Shown here piece by piece: positions 9,571 to 30,952 of a DNA stretch of 30,952 nucleotides. Each line of letters starts with the position of its first letter. Position 1 is the stretch's first letter. Location: IMG/VR virus record IMGVR_UViG_3300020442_002206, positions 1 through 30,952 of that record; one strand, given 5' to 3'. Under the pieces are notes generated by a model. The model saw nothing but the letters and a program-made list of their open reading frames with translations, did no database searches and was not told the DNA's origin. The position numbers were made by a program, and so were the translations under genes. Origin of the DNA: a virus.

Positions 9571-9761
9571 TTTCTTTTGTCCAATATGTCTTTCATTACA
9601 TTTGTTGCTGTATTAGTAAAGAACCTAGGTGCAACACTGTGTATAATTAAAGCTGGTACTAATAATTGTAATTTTACTGCTGTTTTTAGAGCTTGCTTCA
9701 TATGTTGCAAAGGCGTCTCTCCCACGTCTTTTAAATGGGCTTTGCACTGTTTACTCAGCAT
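9567..9761 (-). CDS. DUF6356-like small protein
   Basis: 64 residues. The pattern HLKDVGETPLQHMKQALKTA ... HSVAPRFFTNTATNVMKDI fits the small DUF6356 family (H-L-x-x-x-G-x-x-x-x-H-x-x-x-A ... H-x-x-x-P-x-x-F), with a hydrophobic central helix that may be membrane-associated. The function of the family is unknown. The ATG at 9761 overlaps the end of the preceding small membrane protein gene by 11 bases. Confidence 0.68.
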   Translation of the reverse strand: MLSKQCKAHLKDVGETPLQHMKQALKTAVKLQLLVPALIIHSVAPRFFTNTATNVMKDILDKRK

Positions 9762-9945
9762 CGAACATACTCATTAGTTCAGGACCAAACACACTGGCCG
9801 CCCATCCTAAGGCACATATAGTTACAACACCTAATACCAACCATTTCATTTTGAAATCATCTACAGTCATCTTTAATGCAATTAATTCGTTTCCAAGGAT
9901 TCTAACAGCCACTTCTAGCTTACCTTGATCATCTGGTTTACTCAT
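9751..9945 (-). CDS. Small single-pass membrane protein
   Basis: 64 residues: a soluble N-terminal helix (KLEVAVRILGNELIALKMTV), then a membrane segment at about 34-52 (WLVLGVVTICALGWAASVFG) and a short acidic tail. Helix-then-TM layout recalls XhlA/holin-associated proteins and small conserved phage membrane proteins; no precise family. ATG 9945 has GGGAG 6 bases upstream, and the preceding small gene ends 2 bases earlier. Confidence 0.65.
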   Translation of the reverse strand: MSKPDDQGKLEVAVRILGNELIALKMTVDDFKMKWLVLGVVTICALGWAASVFGPELMSMFDAE

Positions 9946-10721: not shown

Positions 10722-11768
10722 TTAGAATTTAATTTTAATAGAACCTAACACCTTCTGATCATTGTCAGTGTGGGCACCAGTAAATGTATTTGTCTGCTCA
10801 GTATCATGTAGATATACACCAGCTTCAAAGTTTTGGCCGTCGTTAATTGCTACATCATATACTAAACCATAGTACATACCTGAATTACCAAGGTCGTCAT
10901 TTTCCATCTTGTGTACTGCGGCACTAAAGTTATCGTTGATCATGTACATTAATCCATAATCCCAACGGTCTGCTTCAGTGTAAGTACCTGTGTCTTTGTC
11001 GTCCCATTTTTCAATACCCCAAATTACAGGAGCACCAAATCTATGTAACGAACCACCAATTGCAAATCCTTCTTGATTGGTTTTCTTTGAATAACCAGAA
11101 GCACTTTCTGGAGATCTAATCGTCATATATGAAACATCAGCATATCCCATAAGGCTTACTGTTGCAGTTCCATACCATGTGTCTTGATTAGTATCACGTC
11201 CAATAGATACACCCCAAGGAGTTTCTCTACTTAAACCATAGGTATCGAAGTCCATCTCGTTATTCTTTTCCCAATCCCAACCACCAAAGGCTAGAACTGT
11301 TTTTTCGTTGTGATCAATTCTATGATTGGATTGAGTGTAAATTAATGGTACACTAATTTTTGGAGTCTTACTAAATCCTAATCTTTGAGCGTCTGTTTCG
11401 CCAACAAAAAATCTAGCATTATCATTACCAAATCCAATTTGTTTTTCAACAAGCTCATTGTTTTTTGTTGTGTCTAATGAATAGTGGCTGTCTAATCTCA
11501 TAGAACCACCGGCCCAATCTACACCCAACGGATTTTCCGGTAGGTCGTTTTGAATTCCCAAAATAAATTCTGATCTTCCATCCCAACCTGAATCATAAGT
11601 CTTATCATCATAATATGCTTCGATGTTACCATTTAAAAACATACCATCAGGTAAAGACAATGCTTTAGATTCAAGTTCTGCTACCCTCTCTTCTAAAGTT
11701 TCGGCGTGTGCGGTTCCGAGCGTTAAAACAGCCAGAAACACTACACCAATTATTGTAGTTATTTTCAT
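10722..11768 (-). CDS. Outer-membrane porin-like beta-barrel protein
   Basis: 348 residues. Signal peptide at 1-22 (cleavage AHA|ET), a short coiled coil (TLEERVAELESKAL) as in trimeric porins with N-terminal anchors, then alternating amphipathic strands with aromatic girdles (GNIEAYYDDKTYDSGWDGR; DVSYMTIRSPES; AGVYLHDTEQ) and a C-terminal strand ending in Phe (GSIKIKF), the BamA-recognised signature of outer-membrane beta-barrels. Best read as a gram-negative porin (Porin_4/OmpC-like) of about 16 strands. ATG 11768 has AAAGGAAA upstream. It follows the tmRNA on the same strand and is closed by a strong terminator. Porins in phages can change permeability or block superinfection; substrate unknown. 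Confidence 0.85.
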   Translation of the reverse strand: MKITTIIGVVFLAVLTLGTAHAETLEERVAELESKALSLPDGMFLNGNIEAYYDDKTYDSGWDGRSEFILGIQNDLPENPLGVDWAGGSMRLDSHYSLDTTKNNELVEKQIGFGNDNARFFVGETDAQRLGFSKTPKISVPLIYTQSNHRIDHNEKTVLAFGGWDWEKNNEMDFDTYGLSRETPWGVSIGRDTNQDTWYGTATVSLMGYADVSYMTIRSPESASGYSKKTNQEGFAIGGSLHRFGAPVIWGIEKWDDKDTGTYTEADRWDYGLMYMINDNFSAAVHKMENDDLGNSGMYYGLVYDVAINDGQNFEAGVYLHDTEQTNTFTGAHTDNDQKVLGSIKIKF

Positions 11769-11805: not shown

Positions 11806-11829
11806 TTGTCTGTTTAAAGTTCCAGACAA
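11806..11829 (-). other. Hairpin between tmRNA and porin gene
   Basis: Perfect 7-bp inverted repeat TTGTCTG/CAGACAA with a 10-base loop (minus strand 11823-11829 and 11806-11812). No T-run follows, so it is not a typical terminator. It may mark a processing site between the tmRNA and the porin mRNA; the 76 bases from here to the porin ATG show no clear promoter. Confidence 0.5.
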
Positions 11830-11844
11830 GTTACTTATCTCTTT

Positions 11845-12198
11845 TGCAATTATTGATTGTAAATGTGGTCCGTTCTGTTGCTAGGTGGACCAAGCCCCGA
11901 GTGATTACGCCGCGATGGCGAAATCCTCATTCACGTATTTTCTCGCATTAGAAAAATCTACGAAAGAAAATACGTTAGATGCATTATCGTTTGCATTTAT
12001 AACGTTTGTTCGCGTTAACCGAGCTTACATCCGGACAACTCCACTCTTCTACTAATCTGTCAGTCGATCCTAGTTCAGGCCCATCATAATTACTCTACGC
12101 CGTAAATTTGTAGTTTTTACGCTACAGAGTAATTATGGTGGACCTGCTGGGTACTGCCCCCAGGTCCTGTCCAGCGTTTGAATTGCTTCAACGTTGCA
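11845..12198 (-). ncRNA. ssrA: Circularly permuted (two-piece) tmRNA
   Basis: Rescues stalled ribosomes by trans-translation. Order on the minus strand is permuted as in alphaproteobacteria: acceptor piece first, then coding piece. Acceptor piece: T-arm stem 12147-12151/12159-12163 with 7-base loop, and 3' end CAGGTCC-A-CCA (12136-12146). An intervening segment (12083-12135) carries a 12-bp hairpin (12085-12096/12126-12137) and should be cut out. Coding piece: 5' end GGGCCTG (12076-12082) pairs with CAGGTCC to make the 7-bp acceptor stem, then CTAGGATCGAC (D-arm-like). TTGTCCGG (12031-12038) pairs with CTGGACAG (12167-12174) as P2. The tag frame runs 11994 to TAA 11905-11907, 29 residues starting ANDNAS and ending DFAIAA; an 11-bp stem (11933-11943/11965-11975) lies in the tag, and another hairpin is at 11866-11892. 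Outer ends are approximate. Confidence 0.93.
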
Positions 12199-12204
12199 TG
12201 TATA

Positions 12205-12233
12205 TTTATAGCAGATAAACTATGATTTGTCAA
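12205..12233 (-). promoter_or_regulatory. Host-type promoter for tmRNA; overlaps a TATAAATA late motif
   Basis: Minus strand: -35 TTGACA (12228-12233), 17-base spacer, -10 TATAAA (12205-12210). The same bases plus two more spell TATAAATA (12203-12210), the exact T4 late consensus, so the element could serve both host RNA polymerase early and phage-modified polymerase late. Predicted start about 12198. Confidence 0.8.
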
Positions 12234-12408
12234 GAAAAGATTTGTATGCTTCTTCGAAACCTTCTTCTTTTATGTATCCTTCTTCGTTATGCCATAGGCG
12301 TTTGAAGTATCCATCATATGAACTTCTAATAGTTTCTTCTGAAGTGTTTAAGTGTCCCTTCACCATCCAAAAAAGTCTACATGCTTCTTTGAGAGACACC
12401 TGCGTCAT
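12220..12408 (-). CDS. Small protein, unknown function
   Basis: 62 residues from ATG 12408, which overlaps the stop of the DUF3307-like gene as ATGA; a longer in-frame start (12450) would sit deeper in that gene without support. Soluble, helical and charged (SLKEACRLFWMVKGHLNTSE ... KEEGFEEAYKSFLDKS). No family recognised. The -35 of the tmRNA promoter overlaps its 3' end. Confidence 0.6.
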   Translation of the reverse strand: MTQVSLKEACRLFWMVKGHLNTSEETIRSSYDGYFKRLWHNEEGYIKEEGFEEAYKSFLDKS

Positions 12409-12776
12409 AGCATGTACCGAAAGGCCAATAATGTAAAAAGCATATAGCAACTGAAGTGGGCTATTTGGTCAATCCCTTGTACCACCCAAAAACGTTTTGT
12501 TTCAGACTTAATTCCTTTTGCTCTTACGTATCTTGTTTTACAATAATCAATTACAAAGTGTAATACGTAGTCTAAAACACCTAGTGCAAGTGCATAGAAA
12601 GGATTAACATAAAAGACAAATACTAATGCAGTAAGAAAGGCATGATCAAAGGCGTGAATGTATCCTTTGCTCGTTTTGAGGTCTAATTTATCGCCTGAAG
12701 TTAGACGACTTTGTAAAATCAAGTCTGCTAATGCGTGTTTTAAGATTAACAGGTACAGTATCCATGCTGTTTCCAC
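12405..12776 (-). CDS. DUF3307-like membrane protein
   Basis: 123 residues starting at GTG 12776. Several hydrophobic helices with conserved polar residues: LKHALADLILQSRL near the N-terminus, IHAFDHAFLTALVFVF, LDYVLHFVIDYCKTR and GIDQIAHFSCYMLF. The H-A-x-x-D, H-x-x-x-H and D-x-x-x-H-x-x-x-D patterns match DUF3307, a small integral membrane family seen in phages and bacteria with no known function. The first 89 bases overlap the preceding gene in another frame, and the distal end overlaps the next gene by 4 bases. Confidence 0.75.
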   Translation of the reverse strand: METAWILYLLILKHALADLILQSRLTSGDKLDLKTSKGYIHAFDHAFLTALVFVFYVNPFYALALGVLDYVLHFVIDYCKTRYVRAKGIKSETKRFWVVQGIDQIAHFSCYMLFTLLAFRYML

Positions 12777-12916: not shown

Positions 12917-13141
12917 TTACTCAGTGTCTGGGGTGTGAACTATTAGGATATCTGTTGCAACAGGTTTGCCGTTGTGGTCAGTAATTGTGTATTCTACAAT
13001 CATACCTTCAACTATCTTTTTTATTCCTGCTTTACGGAATTCTGATACATGGACAAATAAATCTTTTTGTCCTTCTGCACGTGAAAGAAATCCATATCCT
13101 TTCACATGGTTGTACCATTTAAGTTTTCCTTGTTGTGCCAT
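12917..13141 (-). CDS. Cold-shock-domain protein (CspA family)
   Basis: 74 residues, a complete cold-shock domain: GKLKWYN at the start, RNP1-like KGYGFLSR, RNP2-like DLFVHVSEF and EGMIVEYTI. Binds single-stranded nucleic acid and can act as RNA chaperone or antiterminator. Standard bacterial length and no fusion. The start is ATG 13141 with a weak GAAGGG site. A phage copy may keep phage mRNAs unfolded or act in transcription antitermination (inference). Confidence 0.93.
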   Translation of the reverse strand: MAQQGKLKWYNHVKGYGFLSRAEGQKDLFVHVSEFRKAGIKKIVEGMIVEYTITDHNGKPVATDILIVHTPDTE

Positions 13142-17459: not shown

Positions 17460-17885
17460 TTAGTGTAATGGTGGCATCATGTAAATCTTTTGTGATATAA
17501 CGTGTTCGGGAAGTTCTTCTACTGTTATAGCTTCTTTGTTATACCCTAGGATTATGCCATTGTCAATGTACACTAGATAATATATTATGTCTTTCTTTAC
17601 GTCCTTACTGATATGTATCTCAATATTACTATTGCAAAACCTATCGGTTAACTGTAAAGTATATGCAGTAAGTTGTGCAATTTCATACTCAGAAAATTCA
17701 TCTTGCTCTATTAAGTGCCAAGGTTGTGTCTGTGTGTTTGGATCCCAAGCATTTACTTTGCGAGCTGATACATGTAACTTGCTTGTAAATTGGGTCAAAG
17801 CATCGAAAGGCCTTGGATGATCTTCTAACTTTTCACGTAAAGATTTCCAGACTTTTACTTTATCTTCAAATTTTAATTCAAACAT
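17460..17885 (-). CDS. Conserved phage protein, unknown function
   Basis: 141 residues, soluble, helical N-terminus (FELKFEDKVKVWKSLREKLE) and a beta-rich C-terminal half ending IISQKIYMMPP-like (EHVISQKIYMMPP). Sits between the tail fibre and nrdA, with its ATG overlapping the tail-fibre stop (TTAATG). It resembles hypothetical proteins next to nrdA in marine T4-like phages, but I cannot name a family. Confidence 0.68.
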   Translation of the reverse strand: MFELKFEDKVKVWKSLREKLEDHPRPFDALTQFTSKLHVSARKVNAWDPNTQTQPWHLIEQDEFSEYEIAQLTAYTLQLTDRFCNSNIEIHISKDVKKDIIYYLVYIDNGIILGYNKEAITVEELPEHVISQKIYMMPPLH

Positions 17886-19504
17886 TAACCAAGAACTTTA
17901 ATTTTGTAGTTGAATCTTCCTGTATCATTCACTGTAGAGTTTAACATAGAAACTACTATTGTGTCAACCCCTATTTGTCCATTTGTGTTTACCATTGCGG
18001 CAGTAAATGACAAAGCCGTTTCATAGTTTGTGTCACCTTGATATTCGTGCTCGTCAATAAAATTTAACGTATTGGTTGTAGCATCAAGTTGGAAAGTCAT
18101 CTTTCCGCTTCTTTGTGCGTTTACAAGGTTACTATTATAAAAGTATTCAACTTCATAAGTTCTTGAATAATCACCTGGTAGTCTGAAAAAGTATGTAGGT
18201 GATGATGCTTGCGCCACTTCTAAGGACATGTGTCCACCTAGTGATGCATTTACGCTTCCTTTGATTTCTGAAACGTAAGGATAAGCTGTAATGTATGCCT
18301 GATTGTATGAAAGGTCTGCTGTTCTACTAAACGTATCTTCTACTGAACTATTGCCTGGCGCAGTAAAATCCAATACACTGTATTGTGCGTTCCCTTCGTT
18401 GCCTCCTACATTACCTACACTTTGGTAATTGTTGTGTGAACTAAAGTTGTTTGTACCGTTTGTTATTATGATGCCTTCTCTGTCTATATCTGAAAATTCA
18501 GATTGGCTTATCTTGTTTTTACTTGGACCTGTAATTTGTCCTTGTGAACCTAACACAGTTGCAGTTCCAAATCTAATACCATAACCCAAATTACTTAGGT
18601 AACAACAATGGAAATGATTATTGTAAGCATCGTCATCACTAACAATACCAACACTTAATCCCTCTATCATTACGTGATCAAATTTATTCTTTTGTGTTCC
18701 TACAATAGAACTTAAACAACCTAATCTGATTGCGGCATTGTCATTATTGATTGCCGTTCCTGTTGTCCAAGGTCCTGAAATTTTTATTTCTCTAAAGTGG
18801 CTGTTCTTACAACTTTGTAAAATCATAGCTGGTAAAGTTGTCGACGAAGTTGCAATAGTAAATCCTTGCATGTCAATGTTCTGTGCTTGGTTAAGTGTTG
18901 TGCTTGCACTATCGTCTGCATAAGAACCTGGAGTACTATCGCTGTTTACAGTTTGAAATGCTGTCACGTTGCTCGTTACATTGAACTTGGTTTTGTTCAT
19001 TCCGTCGCCTACGATAGAAGCAAATGGCGGTACATAAATTGTAGATGTAATTGCATAAACTCCAGCAGGAAAATATAATTTAACTCTGCTTTGCTCAGTA
19101 CCCTTTGTTGATGAATTTATATATAATTGATCCAAGGCACGTTGAATTGCTACTGTTTGATCTGTGCCGTCACCCTCTGCTCCAAAGGATCTAATGTTTA
19201 CTATTTCGTCTAATCTTTGTTGTAATGTTCTTTTGATAGGAGAGGTTGCACTTCCGCCAGTTTGTACGATAGTTCCACCTAAATAAGTGTAAGAATTTGC
19301 TAACGTAAACAAATCATCATGTTCTGTGATTAGTTTTGTATTACCTACTGCTGGTGCTCCTTCTGCTACAGATCCATTACCTATGTAAAGTTCTCTTGAA
19401 TCTACAGCCCAACCAAACTCACCGCCAGCTAATTGTGGGACTCCAGAACCTTGATTCTTTTGCCCTCTTCTAACTTGTATTCTGGATATCTGTACGACTG
19501 CCAC
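17885..19504 (-). CDS. Tail fibre/spike with pectate-lyase-type beta helix
   Basis: 539 residues. Residues 1-65 (VAVVQISRIQVRRGQKNQGS-type start, then PQLAGGEFGWAVDSRELYIG) match the N-terminal module of marine T4-like fibres and major-tropism-determinant-like proteins. From about 101 (IVNIRSFGAEGDGTDQTVAI) a pectate-lyase_3/phage-endo-N-type parallel beta helix begins, with repeated N-rich turns to about 430, then a beta-sandwich tip. Role: receptor binding and possibly glycan cleavage on the host surface. Start is GTG 19504 with AAGGAG 7 bases upstream and a CATAAATA late motif (19528-19535) further up. Confidence 0.88.
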   Translation of the reverse strand: MAVVQISRIQVRRGQKNQGSGVPQLAGGEFGWAVDSRELYIGNGSVAEGAPAVGNTKLITEHDDLFTLANSYTYLGGTIVQTGGSATSPIKRTLQQRLDEIVNIRSFGAEGDGTDQTVAIQRALDQLYINSSTKGTEQSRVKLYFPAGVYAITSTIYVPPFASIVGDGMNKTKFNVTSNVTAFQTVNSDSTPGSYADDSASTTLNQAQNIDMQGFTIATSSTTLPAMILQSCKNSHFREIKISGPWTTGTAINNDNAAIRLGCLSSIVGTQKNKFDHVMIEGLSVGIVSDDDAYNNHFHCCYLSNLGYGIRFGTATVLGSQGQITGPSKNKISQSEFSDIDREGIIITNGTNNFSSHNNYQSVGNVGGNEGNAQYSVLDFTAPGNSSVEDTFSRTADLSYNQAYITAYPYVSEIKGSVNASLGGHMSLEVAQASSPTYFFRLPGDYSRTYEVEYFYNSNLVNAQRSGKMTFQLDATTNTLNFIDEHEYQGDTNYETALSFTAAMVNTNGQIGVDTIVVSMLNSTVNDTGRFNYKIKVLG

Positions 19505-29208: not shown

Positions 29209-29970
29209 ATGAGCATAAAAGATTTAAGTTTCAAAGAAAGATCCTTATTGTTTGCTAACCTTGCTAAAATAGCTTATTGTAACAAAAGAGATGCAATAAG
29301 TCAAGCAAAAAATTATGGATTTAACACAGTAGAATTTTACGACAGAGATGGAGCTCAAGCATACCGTTTTATGAACAAGACGGACCTTGTCATTGCATGT
29401 CGTGGCACACAACCAAATGAATTTAACGATATCAAAGCAGACCTTAGAGCTGTTCCTGTCATGGCTGAAACAGTTGGTAAGGTACACATGGGGTTTAAGA
29501 AAGAAGTAGATGACTTATGGCCTATGGTTATAGAAGATATAAACAGAAAAGTAAATCAAAAGAAATCACTTTGGTTTTGTGGACACAGCCTAGGAGCCGC
29601 AATGGCAACTATAATGGCAAGTAGATGCCTACATGACGAAAACTTAAACGACCCTATTGAATTATACACTTATGGTTCTCCTAGAGTAGGTTGGAGAAAA
29701 TATGTTAAAAGCCTTGGCGTAACTCATCATAGGTGGGTCAATAACAATGACATTGTAACTGGTGTACCATTATGGTTGATGGGCTATGTTCATCACGGTG
29801 AAAAACATTATCTAAATGCATATGGAAAAGTTAGAAATCCATCTGGATGGCAACTGTTTAAAGATCGTATGCGAGGTATGTGGTTAGGCATCAAAAAGAA
29901 AAGAATAGATAACTTTTCAGATCATAGCATCACAGAATATGCCAAGCATATCGAAGACTGGAAATCCTAA
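29209..29970 (+). CDS. Class 3 lipase-like alpha/beta hydrolase
   Basis: 253 residues, on the opposite strand to its neighbours. Lipase_3 features: VIACRGTQPNEFNDIKADLR (oxyanion/lid-side motif), the nucleophile elbow CGHSLGAAMA with Ser127, YTYGSPRVG, NNNDIVTGVP with Asp181, and FSDHSITEY with His239. The catalytic triad thus looks complete. No signal peptide, so it would act in the cytosol or reach the membrane after lysis starts. Its last base overlaps the prs stop convergently. Natural substrate unknown; membrane-phospholipid turnover or envelope weakening are plausible. Confidence 0.9.
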   Translation: MSIKDLSFKERSLLFANLAKIAYCNKRDAISQAKNYGFNTVEFYDRDGAQAYRFMNKTDLVIACRGTQPNEFNDIKADLRAVPVMAETVGKVHMGFKKEVDDLWPMVIEDINRKVNQKKSLWFCGHSLGAAMATIMASRCLHDENLNDPIELYTYGSPRVGWRKYVKSLGVTHHRWVNNNDIVTGVPLWLMGYVHHGEKHYLNAYGKVRNPSGWQLFKDRMRGMWLGIKKKRIDNFSDHSITEYAKHIEDWKS

Positions 29971-30920
29971 ACAAACAAACTAGATACTGATTCTTCGTTA
30001 GTAACTCTTCTGATTGCTTCCCCAAACAATTGAGACACAGACACTTGTCTTGTTTTCTTACAACCTTTTGGACATCTATTAGGTATAGAATCTGTTACAA
30101 CTAATTCAGCAAGAGCACTTTTCTCTACCTTTTGGCATGCTTCTCCTGTCAATACTCCGTGTGTTATATAAGCTCTAACACTTAAAGCACCAGCATCAAT
30201 AATAGCTTTTGCGGCATTACATAATGTTCCGCCCGAGTCTACAATATCATCTACTAGGATTGCATGTTTACCTTTGACATCTCCTATTAGATTCATTACT
30301 TCTGACTTGCCTGCTTCTGGTCTGCGTTTATCTACTATTGCAATGTCTCCATGAAACATGTCTGCAAACTTCCTAGCACGAACAACTCCACCTGCATCTG
30401 GTGAAACAAAAACAGTTCCTACCTGTTCAATGTCAGGATCATCTATAATGCCAATAGTCCTTTTAATGTCTTTGGCAAAGACCACCCTGCTGGTAAGATC
30501 ATCTACAGGGATATCAAAGAACCCTTGTATCTGACCAGCATGAAGATCCATAGTCAAAATTCTATCTGCTCCTGCTTTTGTAATAAGGTTGGCAACAAGT
30601 TTTGCCGTGATAGGTGTACGTGATGCACTCTTTCTATCCTGCCTAGCATAACCATAGTATGGCATGACAGCAGTGATTCGTGATGCCGAGCTACGTTTGG
30701 CCGCATCAATCATAACCATCAGTTCCATCAAGCTATCGTTAACAGGTGAACAAGTAGATTGCACAATGAAAACATCTTCGCCCCTGATGTTTTCCAAAAA
30801 CTCTACACTTGACTCGCCATCAGCAAAGGTGCTGATCTTCGCAGGGACAAGTGTTGCGAAACAATGTTCCGCAATTTCCATTGCTAATTTTGGATTAGCA
30901 TTTCCTGTGATTATTTTCAT
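29967..30920 (-). CDS. prs: Ribose-phosphate pyrophosphokinase (PRPP synthetase)
   Basis: 317 residues from ATG 30920, which aligns with E. coli Prs (MKIITGNANPKLA vs MKLFAGNATPELA); an in-frame TTG at 30926, nearer the AGGAGG site, is the alternative. Makes PRPP from ribose-5-phosphate and ATP for nucleotide synthesis. Visible: FADGESSVE, STCSPVNDSLMELMVMIDA, YYGYARQDRK, MDLHAGQIQGFF, FVSPDAGGVVRAR and the PRPP-binding ILVDDIVDSGGT; the C-terminal RRVTNEESVSSLF matches the E. coli tail. Length is normal and no region is lost. Supplies precursors together with the guaC and RNR functions. Confidence 0.96.
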   Translation of the reverse strand: MKIITGNANPKLAMEIAEHCFATLVPAKISTFADGESSVEFLENIRGEDVFIVQSTCSPVNDSLMELMVMIDAAKRSSASRITAVMPYYGYARQDRKSASRTPITAKLVANLITKAGADRILTMDLHAGQIQGFFDIPVDDLTSRVVFAKDIKRTIGIIDDPDIEQVGTVFVSPDAGGVVRARKFADMFHGDIAIVDKRRPEAGKSEVMNLIGDVKGKHAILVDDIVDSGGTLCNAAKAIIDAGALSVRAYITHGVLTGEACQKVEKSALAELVVTDSIPNRCPKGCKKTRQVSVSQLFGEAIRRVTNEESVSSLFV

Positions 30921-30952
30921 TCTCAAAGTAAGCCTTCCTCCTGGTGAATTTT

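Follow-up and report, generated by a model that had tools for sequence, protein, structure and literature searches.

We confirmed that the minus strand of a marine phage contig carries, at 12237-11864, a permuted (two-piece) tmRNA gene of the alphaproteobacterial type, and its features make it highly probable that the gene yields a working phage-encoded tmRNA that relies on the RNA processing, AlaRS, SmpB and proteases of the host. The window, by which we mean the whole stretch of DNA analysed, comprises the 30,952 bases of the virus record. Rfam searches (cmscan) revealed a match to RF01849 (alpha_tmRNA) over the full model length at 12237-11864(-) (97.6 bits, E 1e-25; cut-off 50 bits) and a match to RF04321 (tmRNA_permuted) at 12197-11905(-) (96.4 bits; cut-off 47 bits), and ARAGORN called a permuted tmRNA (tmRNA*) at 11814-12228(-) with the tag ANDNASNVFSFVDFSNARKYVNEDFAIAA. 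The original prediction of a permuted, alphaproteobacterial-type two-piece tmRNA with its parts named was thus borne out by both models, each above its cut-off, by ARAGORN and by the sequence. The RF01849 score lies under those of all 30 low-scoring small-genome alphaproteobacterial genes that were re-scored (131-220 bits), and the window tmRNA is therefore a divergent member. Weak Rfam matches at the linker (mir-7973) and elsewhere were far under the cut-off and were set aside as chance.

The gene order, read from the sequence and from the permuted ARAGORN call, is an acceptor piece upstream, an excised segment, and a coding piece downstream. The acceptor piece (12136-12197(-), from the RF04321 and RF01849 alignments and covariation, the 5′ end being an approximate model boundary) comprises the 3′ strand of P2, a T-arm with a 5-bp stem and the 7-nt loop GGCAGTA (12147-12163(-)), and the 3′ strand of the acceptor stem, CAGGTCC (12140-12146(-)), which includes U70 of G3:U70 and is followed by A and an encoded CCA with its last base at 12136. 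The coding piece (11864-12082(-), its approximate 3′ end taken from the end of the RF01849 match) opens with the acceptor 5′ strand GGGCCTG (12082-12076(-)) and continues through the D-loop, the 5′ strand of P2, the tag frame and a 3′ hairpin region. The acceptor stem has seven pairs, the third being G:U, and P2, as formed in the window copy by TTGTCCGG (12031-12038(-)) with CTGGACAG (12167-12174), has eight, two of which are G:U. The positions originally predicted for P2, the CCA end and the start of the coding piece proved correct.

Comparison with relatives revealed that acceptor pairing was kept in 259/259 cells (shuffled maximum 221) and T-arm pairing in 185/185 cells (shuffled maximum 170) of 37 distinct sequences; these counts take related sequences as independent, so that the shuffles overstate significance, and the compensatory pairs themselves are unaffected. 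The third pair, G3:U70, was kept in 37/37 distinct relatives, acceptor pairs 4-6 covaried, and compensatory changes occurred in T-arm pairs 1-3. Loss of the acceptor pairing in relatives, named in the original prediction as a sign against it, was not seen in any of the 37. Since both helices are paired, with compensatory changes, in every distinct relative, chance is excluded, and the pattern of changes indicates that the tRNA-like part is under selection as RNA.

The excised segment (12083-12135(-), 53 nt) has no ORF, and its ends pair and extend the acceptor stem as a clamp helix, as judged from the fold, the inverted repeat and covariation. Together with the acceptor stem it folds at −34.1 kcal/mol (z −8.4), a value reached by 0/200 shuffles, which agrees with the predicted hairpin. 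Covariation of the clamp helix was seen among 31 distinct relatives, with 409/465 cells paired (shuffled mean 361, maximum 377). Some members of the tag family described below (L123, L125, L145 and relatives) have an excised segment of 18 nt, whose run of four C residues (CCCC) might form an alternative hairpin with the acceptor GGGG, and a sigma70-like promoter further upstream.

Upstream of the acceptor piece, a −35-like TTGACA (12228-12233(-)) lies 17 nt from a −10-like TATAAA contained in TATAAATA (12203-12210(-)), so that TTGACA-N17-TATAAATA has the form of a sigma70 promoter and also that of a T4-type late promoter box. TTGACA-N17-TATAAA was found at equal distance in most distinct upstream sequences of the tag family, as well as in the cultured phage Melnitz, and the strict form of this pattern occurred in 0/68 alphaproteobacterial host tmRNA genes. 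Similarly, TATAAATA is present as a single copy in the window and is kept in about 30 of 40 distinct upstream sequences, and was seen at the tmRNA position in 0/68 host genes. The tmRNA promoter is of a consensus-like sigma70 type. We infer late-promoter use only tentatively, because TATAAATA was not enriched across the phage loci as a whole (71 copies vs about 77 in one shuffle), and a role as a genome-wide late promoter was rejected, leaving only the conservation of the copy at the tmRNA.

NrdA, NrdB, a cold shock protein and a DUF3307 membrane protein are encoded upstream of the tmRNA on the same strand. The window NrdA is about 70% identical to that of cyanomyoviruses, and a DUF6267 protein is in common with cyanophages and Melnitz, so that the T4-like character originally proposed is plausible and the phage is probably a T4-like marine myovirus; a search for Gp23, the T4 capsid family, which had no positive control, gave no match in the window and 14 related contigs. 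Directly downstream of the tmRNA, 10722-11768(-) encodes a protein of 348 aa that appears to have a signal peptide. It matches no Pfam or PHROG family but looks like an outer-membrane beta-barrel, and its gene is followed by a terminator-like hairpin (10713-10691). Elsewhere on the minus strand, a protein of 539 aa (17885-19504) that has a pectate-lyase-like domain and matches Mtd_N weakly is probably a tail fibre or spike, and host-like metabolic genes encode IMP dehydrogenase/GMP reductase (450-1499), the cold shock protein (12917-13141) and ribose-phosphate pyrophosphokinase (29967-30926).

The most unusual trait of the locus, on which the original prediction did not remark, is a long, conserved tag of 29 aa. 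The tag frame called by ARAGORN (11905-11994(-), 29 codons and stop) runs from GCA at 11994 to the stop TAA at 11907-11905, and has the hydrophobic end A-I-A-A. It belongs to a type, ANDN...[T/S]FV[D/N]F[G/S]...VNEDFALAA (29-31 aa), represented by 72 copies with 33 distinct DNA versions, that corresponds to a host-like tag (ANDN...EDFALAA) with 15-17 extra middle residues carrying [T/S]FV[D/N]F[G/S]. Codon-level analysis of the 33 distinct tags revealed that F12, V13 and F15 never change (pN 0, pS 0.91), whereas their third codon positions vary through TTC/TTT, all four GTN codons (GTG/GTA/GTT/GTC) and TTC/TTT, respectively. The six-column core (pN 0.14 vs pS 0.54) and the last nine codons (pN/pS 0.08) were also constrained, and columns 17-22 were free (pN 0.52 vs pS 0.65). 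The invariance of F, V and F despite variable third positions shows that the tag peptide itself is under selection.

Long and short tags alternate within tmRNA branches, as in L021/L050 (ANENFALAA, inside a long-tag branch) and L110 (ANANYSLAA), and the tag therefore seems to be exchanged, or the insert lost. Length alone does not make the phage tag unique, since small-genome alphaproteobacteria have tags of 19-31 aa with other sequences, among them tags of 29-31 aa rich in arginine, lysine and asparagine (L236, L243, L244, L246 and L247), unlike the phage tags. Two phages (L067, 7900-8480(-); L099, 6680-7300) have in common a different long tag type, ANKRALGFADLT...LRLAA (22-24 aa).

Relatives were collected with sequence patterns. 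The T-loop/acceptor pattern matched at least 120 viral stretches, and ARAGORN found a tmRNA in 74 of 121 loci (among the matches listed, together with the window's own), one of which, L121, has a tag almost identical to that of the window; with the 53 structures of PMC9004378, the matches make the earlier view that phage tmRNAs are known but few an understatement. The tag pattern VNEDFA..AA matched 61 viral contigs, every one with the long tag type. A search of 84,980 species genomes of bacteria and archaea revealed no tmRNA whose tag ends in this way, and the eight matches of the pattern all lay within longer protein frames with no ARAGORN tmRNA there, five of them in one common family resembling ribosomal protein L4. 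The 72 copies combine this pattern with a second one (TFV[DN]F type), which itself required FV[DN]F; the first did not require it, yet all its matches have it. Two shorter-spaced matches of the second pattern (L281/L287) were discarded as holding no tag-like peptide. Furthermore, a search by the neighbouring DUF3307 protein, in which the tag was not used, revealed two further loci with the tag ANFNALDNVTFVDFSRAKDYVANEDFALAA, so that the motif is not merely a product of the search pattern, and a third locus without an ARAGORN tmRNA, so that the tmRNA gene is not always present. Among INPHARED phage records, the window tag type was not found by tblastn with two tags, and the tmRNA locus gave no match at 1e-5 in a distant blastn; relaxing the limit to E 10 added no more than 35 nt of the Melnitz ssrA and chance matches.

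The excised segments of relatives often contain a small phage gene, and these nested genes form a separate observation. Distinct viral excised segments have a median length of 73 nt, with 30/78 at 90 nt or more, and distinct alphaproteobacterial ones a median of 25 nt, with 2/46 at 90 nt or more. In the 30 long viral segments, the longest ATG frame averaged 104 nt, vs 48 nt in shuffled sequences and 49 nt on the reverse strand, and exceeded dinucleotide shuffles (p ≤ 0.05) in 16. Small phage ORFs with ribosome-binding-like sites, enclosed by the covarying helix, were seen in the excised segments of L121, L169, L143, L286, L156, L157, L277, L011, L046, L068, L110 and Melnitz (L226, MZ577097). 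Those of L121, L169, L143 and L286 match Melnitz_85 (57% identity, E 5e-18), which lies directly upstream of the Melnitz ssrA. That of L011 matches window 12220-12450(-) (43% identity over 63 aa, E 1e-16, BLASTP), a small gene just upstream of the tmRNA that encodes 76 aa from TTG and whose end overlaps the −35 box. That of L046 resembles window 9751-9945 (33% over 46 aa, E 1e-6), which is a weaker case. Because free-standing homologues exist, these three kinds of nested ORF are clearly genes, and two of the three kinds of homologue adjoin a tmRNA.

Some nested frames stop short of the cut site; others extend into the coding piece and would become non-stop mRNAs once the RNA is cut. Frames that pass through the cut site were noted in L156, L157, L032, L038, L060, L068, L110 and L226, where they stop at the D-loop UAG or later. 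We found no publication on genes nested in tmRNA excised segments, in a search of a mainly open-access literature. Small phage genes lodged between the two pieces of a split functional RNA, as in these relatives and in the cultured phage Melnitz among them, would be a new form of gene nesting, and they raise the regulatory question of whether the nested gene is translated before the RNA is cut.

For the window, the features described above are consistent with the following course. Host RNA polymerase would make one precursor, which the acceptor stem and the clamp helix would fold. Host tRNA-processing enzymes would then remove the 53-nt segment, with RNase P cutting at 12082 and 3′ trimming to the CCA at 12136, and the two pieces would stay joined through the acceptor stem and P2. 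Host AlaRS, for which G3:U70 is the identity pair, would charge the molecule, and host SmpB would carry it to ribosomes that have stalled because an mRNA is broken or lacks a stop codon; such mRNAs are expected to be abundant during lytic takeover. After the addition of 29 residues the ribosome would be released at UAA, and the C-terminal IAA would direct the tagged chain to a host protease. We assume that SmpB is supplied by the host, since no SmpB gene was found in 14 related contigs, all of them incomplete. Alpha-type tmRNA was present in 352/385 alphaproteobacteria, and hosts of this class therefore possess the pathway.

We infer a role for the tmRNA in infection. For the insert, our most economical guess is that it alters the handover of tagged chains to the protease, by adaptor spacing or as a partner-binding motif. 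SspB-type adaptors bind the front of such tags and ClpX the end, so that the insert would change the spacing between them, which gives a lead. A broader joint reading, which we regard as doubtful, would make the tmRNA a phage-specific tagging device, with [T/S]FV[D/N]F[G/S] as a signal to a partner beyond or instead of host ClpXP/SspB, and the excised segment a cargo site for small phage genes; where these cross the cut site, processing would make a non-stop mRNA, itself a trans-translation substrate, and would couple nested gene output to tmRNA maturation.

Tagging could instead be a by-product of a tmRNA that mainly frees ribosomes late in infection, the long tag being a tolerated spacer. 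This is possible, if on the whole unlikely: tag length varies among close relatives, with short tags (L021/L050, L110) in the same branches, and the unrelated 19-31 aa tags of some small-genome alphaproteobacteria argue that length alone is tolerated; however, a spacer free of selection would be expected to change in the manner of columns 17-22, and F, V and F are constant in 33 distinct sequences though all their synonymous third positions vary. The same synonymous variation makes it improbable that the conserved stretch is an RNA element, whether a fold or a protein site, rather than a peptide signal, since it is the mark of peptide selection. The tag frame of the window does contain an 11-bp perfect inverted repeat (11933-11975(-); 11933-11943 with 11965-11975), partly kept via G:U in near-identical relatives, but it is absent from other tag groups and is thus no general feature, and we rejected hairpin formation in the RNA as the reason why the tag is conserved. 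That the gene is a non-functional relic, or a decoy titrating host SmpB, seems very improbable. The decoy has a precedent in mycobacteriophage DS6A, whose tmRNA consists of the tRNA-like domain only (PMC4131195, PMC11915505); yet in the window the tag frame, for which a decoy has no need, is intact and constrained, and the promoter, the acceptor stem and the excised segment have been preserved, with covariation.

The alphaproteobacterial type and gene order, and a tag that ends like host tags (ANDN...ALAA), would also fit an ssrA gene captured recently from the present host, in line with the host capture originally proposed. We analysed 122 sequences over 157 columns, including 47 sampled alphaproteobacterial genes, in a tree whose root is arbitrary and whose bootstraps are not fully settled; the window, 14 tag-family members, 56 other viral sequences and Melnitz formed one group of 72 (support 100/98), apart from the host genes, and three viral rows (L034, L067 and L101) fell outside it. 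The window thus groups with phage tmRNAs and with none of the 47 sampled hosts, DNA similarity to 385 alphaproteobacteria is confined to stretches of 32-38 nt, and the window tag ending is carried by no tmRNA in the 84,980 species genomes. With the phage tmRNAs standing apart from the sampled alphaproteobacterial ones, no host capture is visible at this level and a recent one is most improbable; the separate group suggests an old phage lineage.

The tmRNAs of Bacillus phage G and of mycobacteriophages Bxz1 and Wildcat are of the one-piece form, and these phages are unrelated to the window phage. All three are listed among phage-encoded tmRNAs in PMC4131195, and a tmRNA database holds 79 phage sequences (PMC11915505). 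The DS6A tmRNA resembles that of the window as a phage RNA acting on the trans-translation pathway, but it is without a tag frame and is a reported inhibitor (PMC4131195, PMC11915505), whereas the window tag frame is intact and constrained. With alphaproteobacterial permuted tmRNAs (RF01849/RF04321), the window shares the gene order, the G3:U70 acceptor stem, the T-arm, P2, the tag start and the 3′ region; host tags, however, are mostly 12 aa (40/68) compared with 29 aa, and the median host excised segment is about 25 nt long compared with 53 nt.

Two-piece tmRNAs were published in 2022 for two marine myophages, the Methylophilales phage Melnitz and the Pelagibacter phage Mosig, and for 53 tmRNA structures, of which 50 are from marine or aquatic phages (PMC9004378), and the window tmRNA is therefore not new in kind. 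Melnitz ssrA (MZ577097) is likewise a two-piece, alphaproteobacterial-type tmRNA in a marine myophage. Its promoter (TTGACA-N17-TATAAATA) and its clamp helix (TAAACACTT...GAAGTGTTTATGAT) match those of the window, and it belongs to the same phage group in the tree. Its tag, however, has 14 aa (ANDNYVPVDYALAA), compared with 29 aa and an FVDF insert in the window, and its excised segment has 142 nt and holds an unannotated ORF, at 46096-46257 of MZ577096-8, covered only by the SsrA feature, compared with 53 nt and no ORF. For the role of phage tmRNAs in infection, PMC9004378 gives suggestions only. What is new here is a variant from an undescribed phage lineage, with a tag about twice the usual length and a conserved stretch that none of the bacterial genomes searched was found to carry. 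Since this phage-only tag has an internal motif that does not vary, the question of phage tmRNA function becomes testable.
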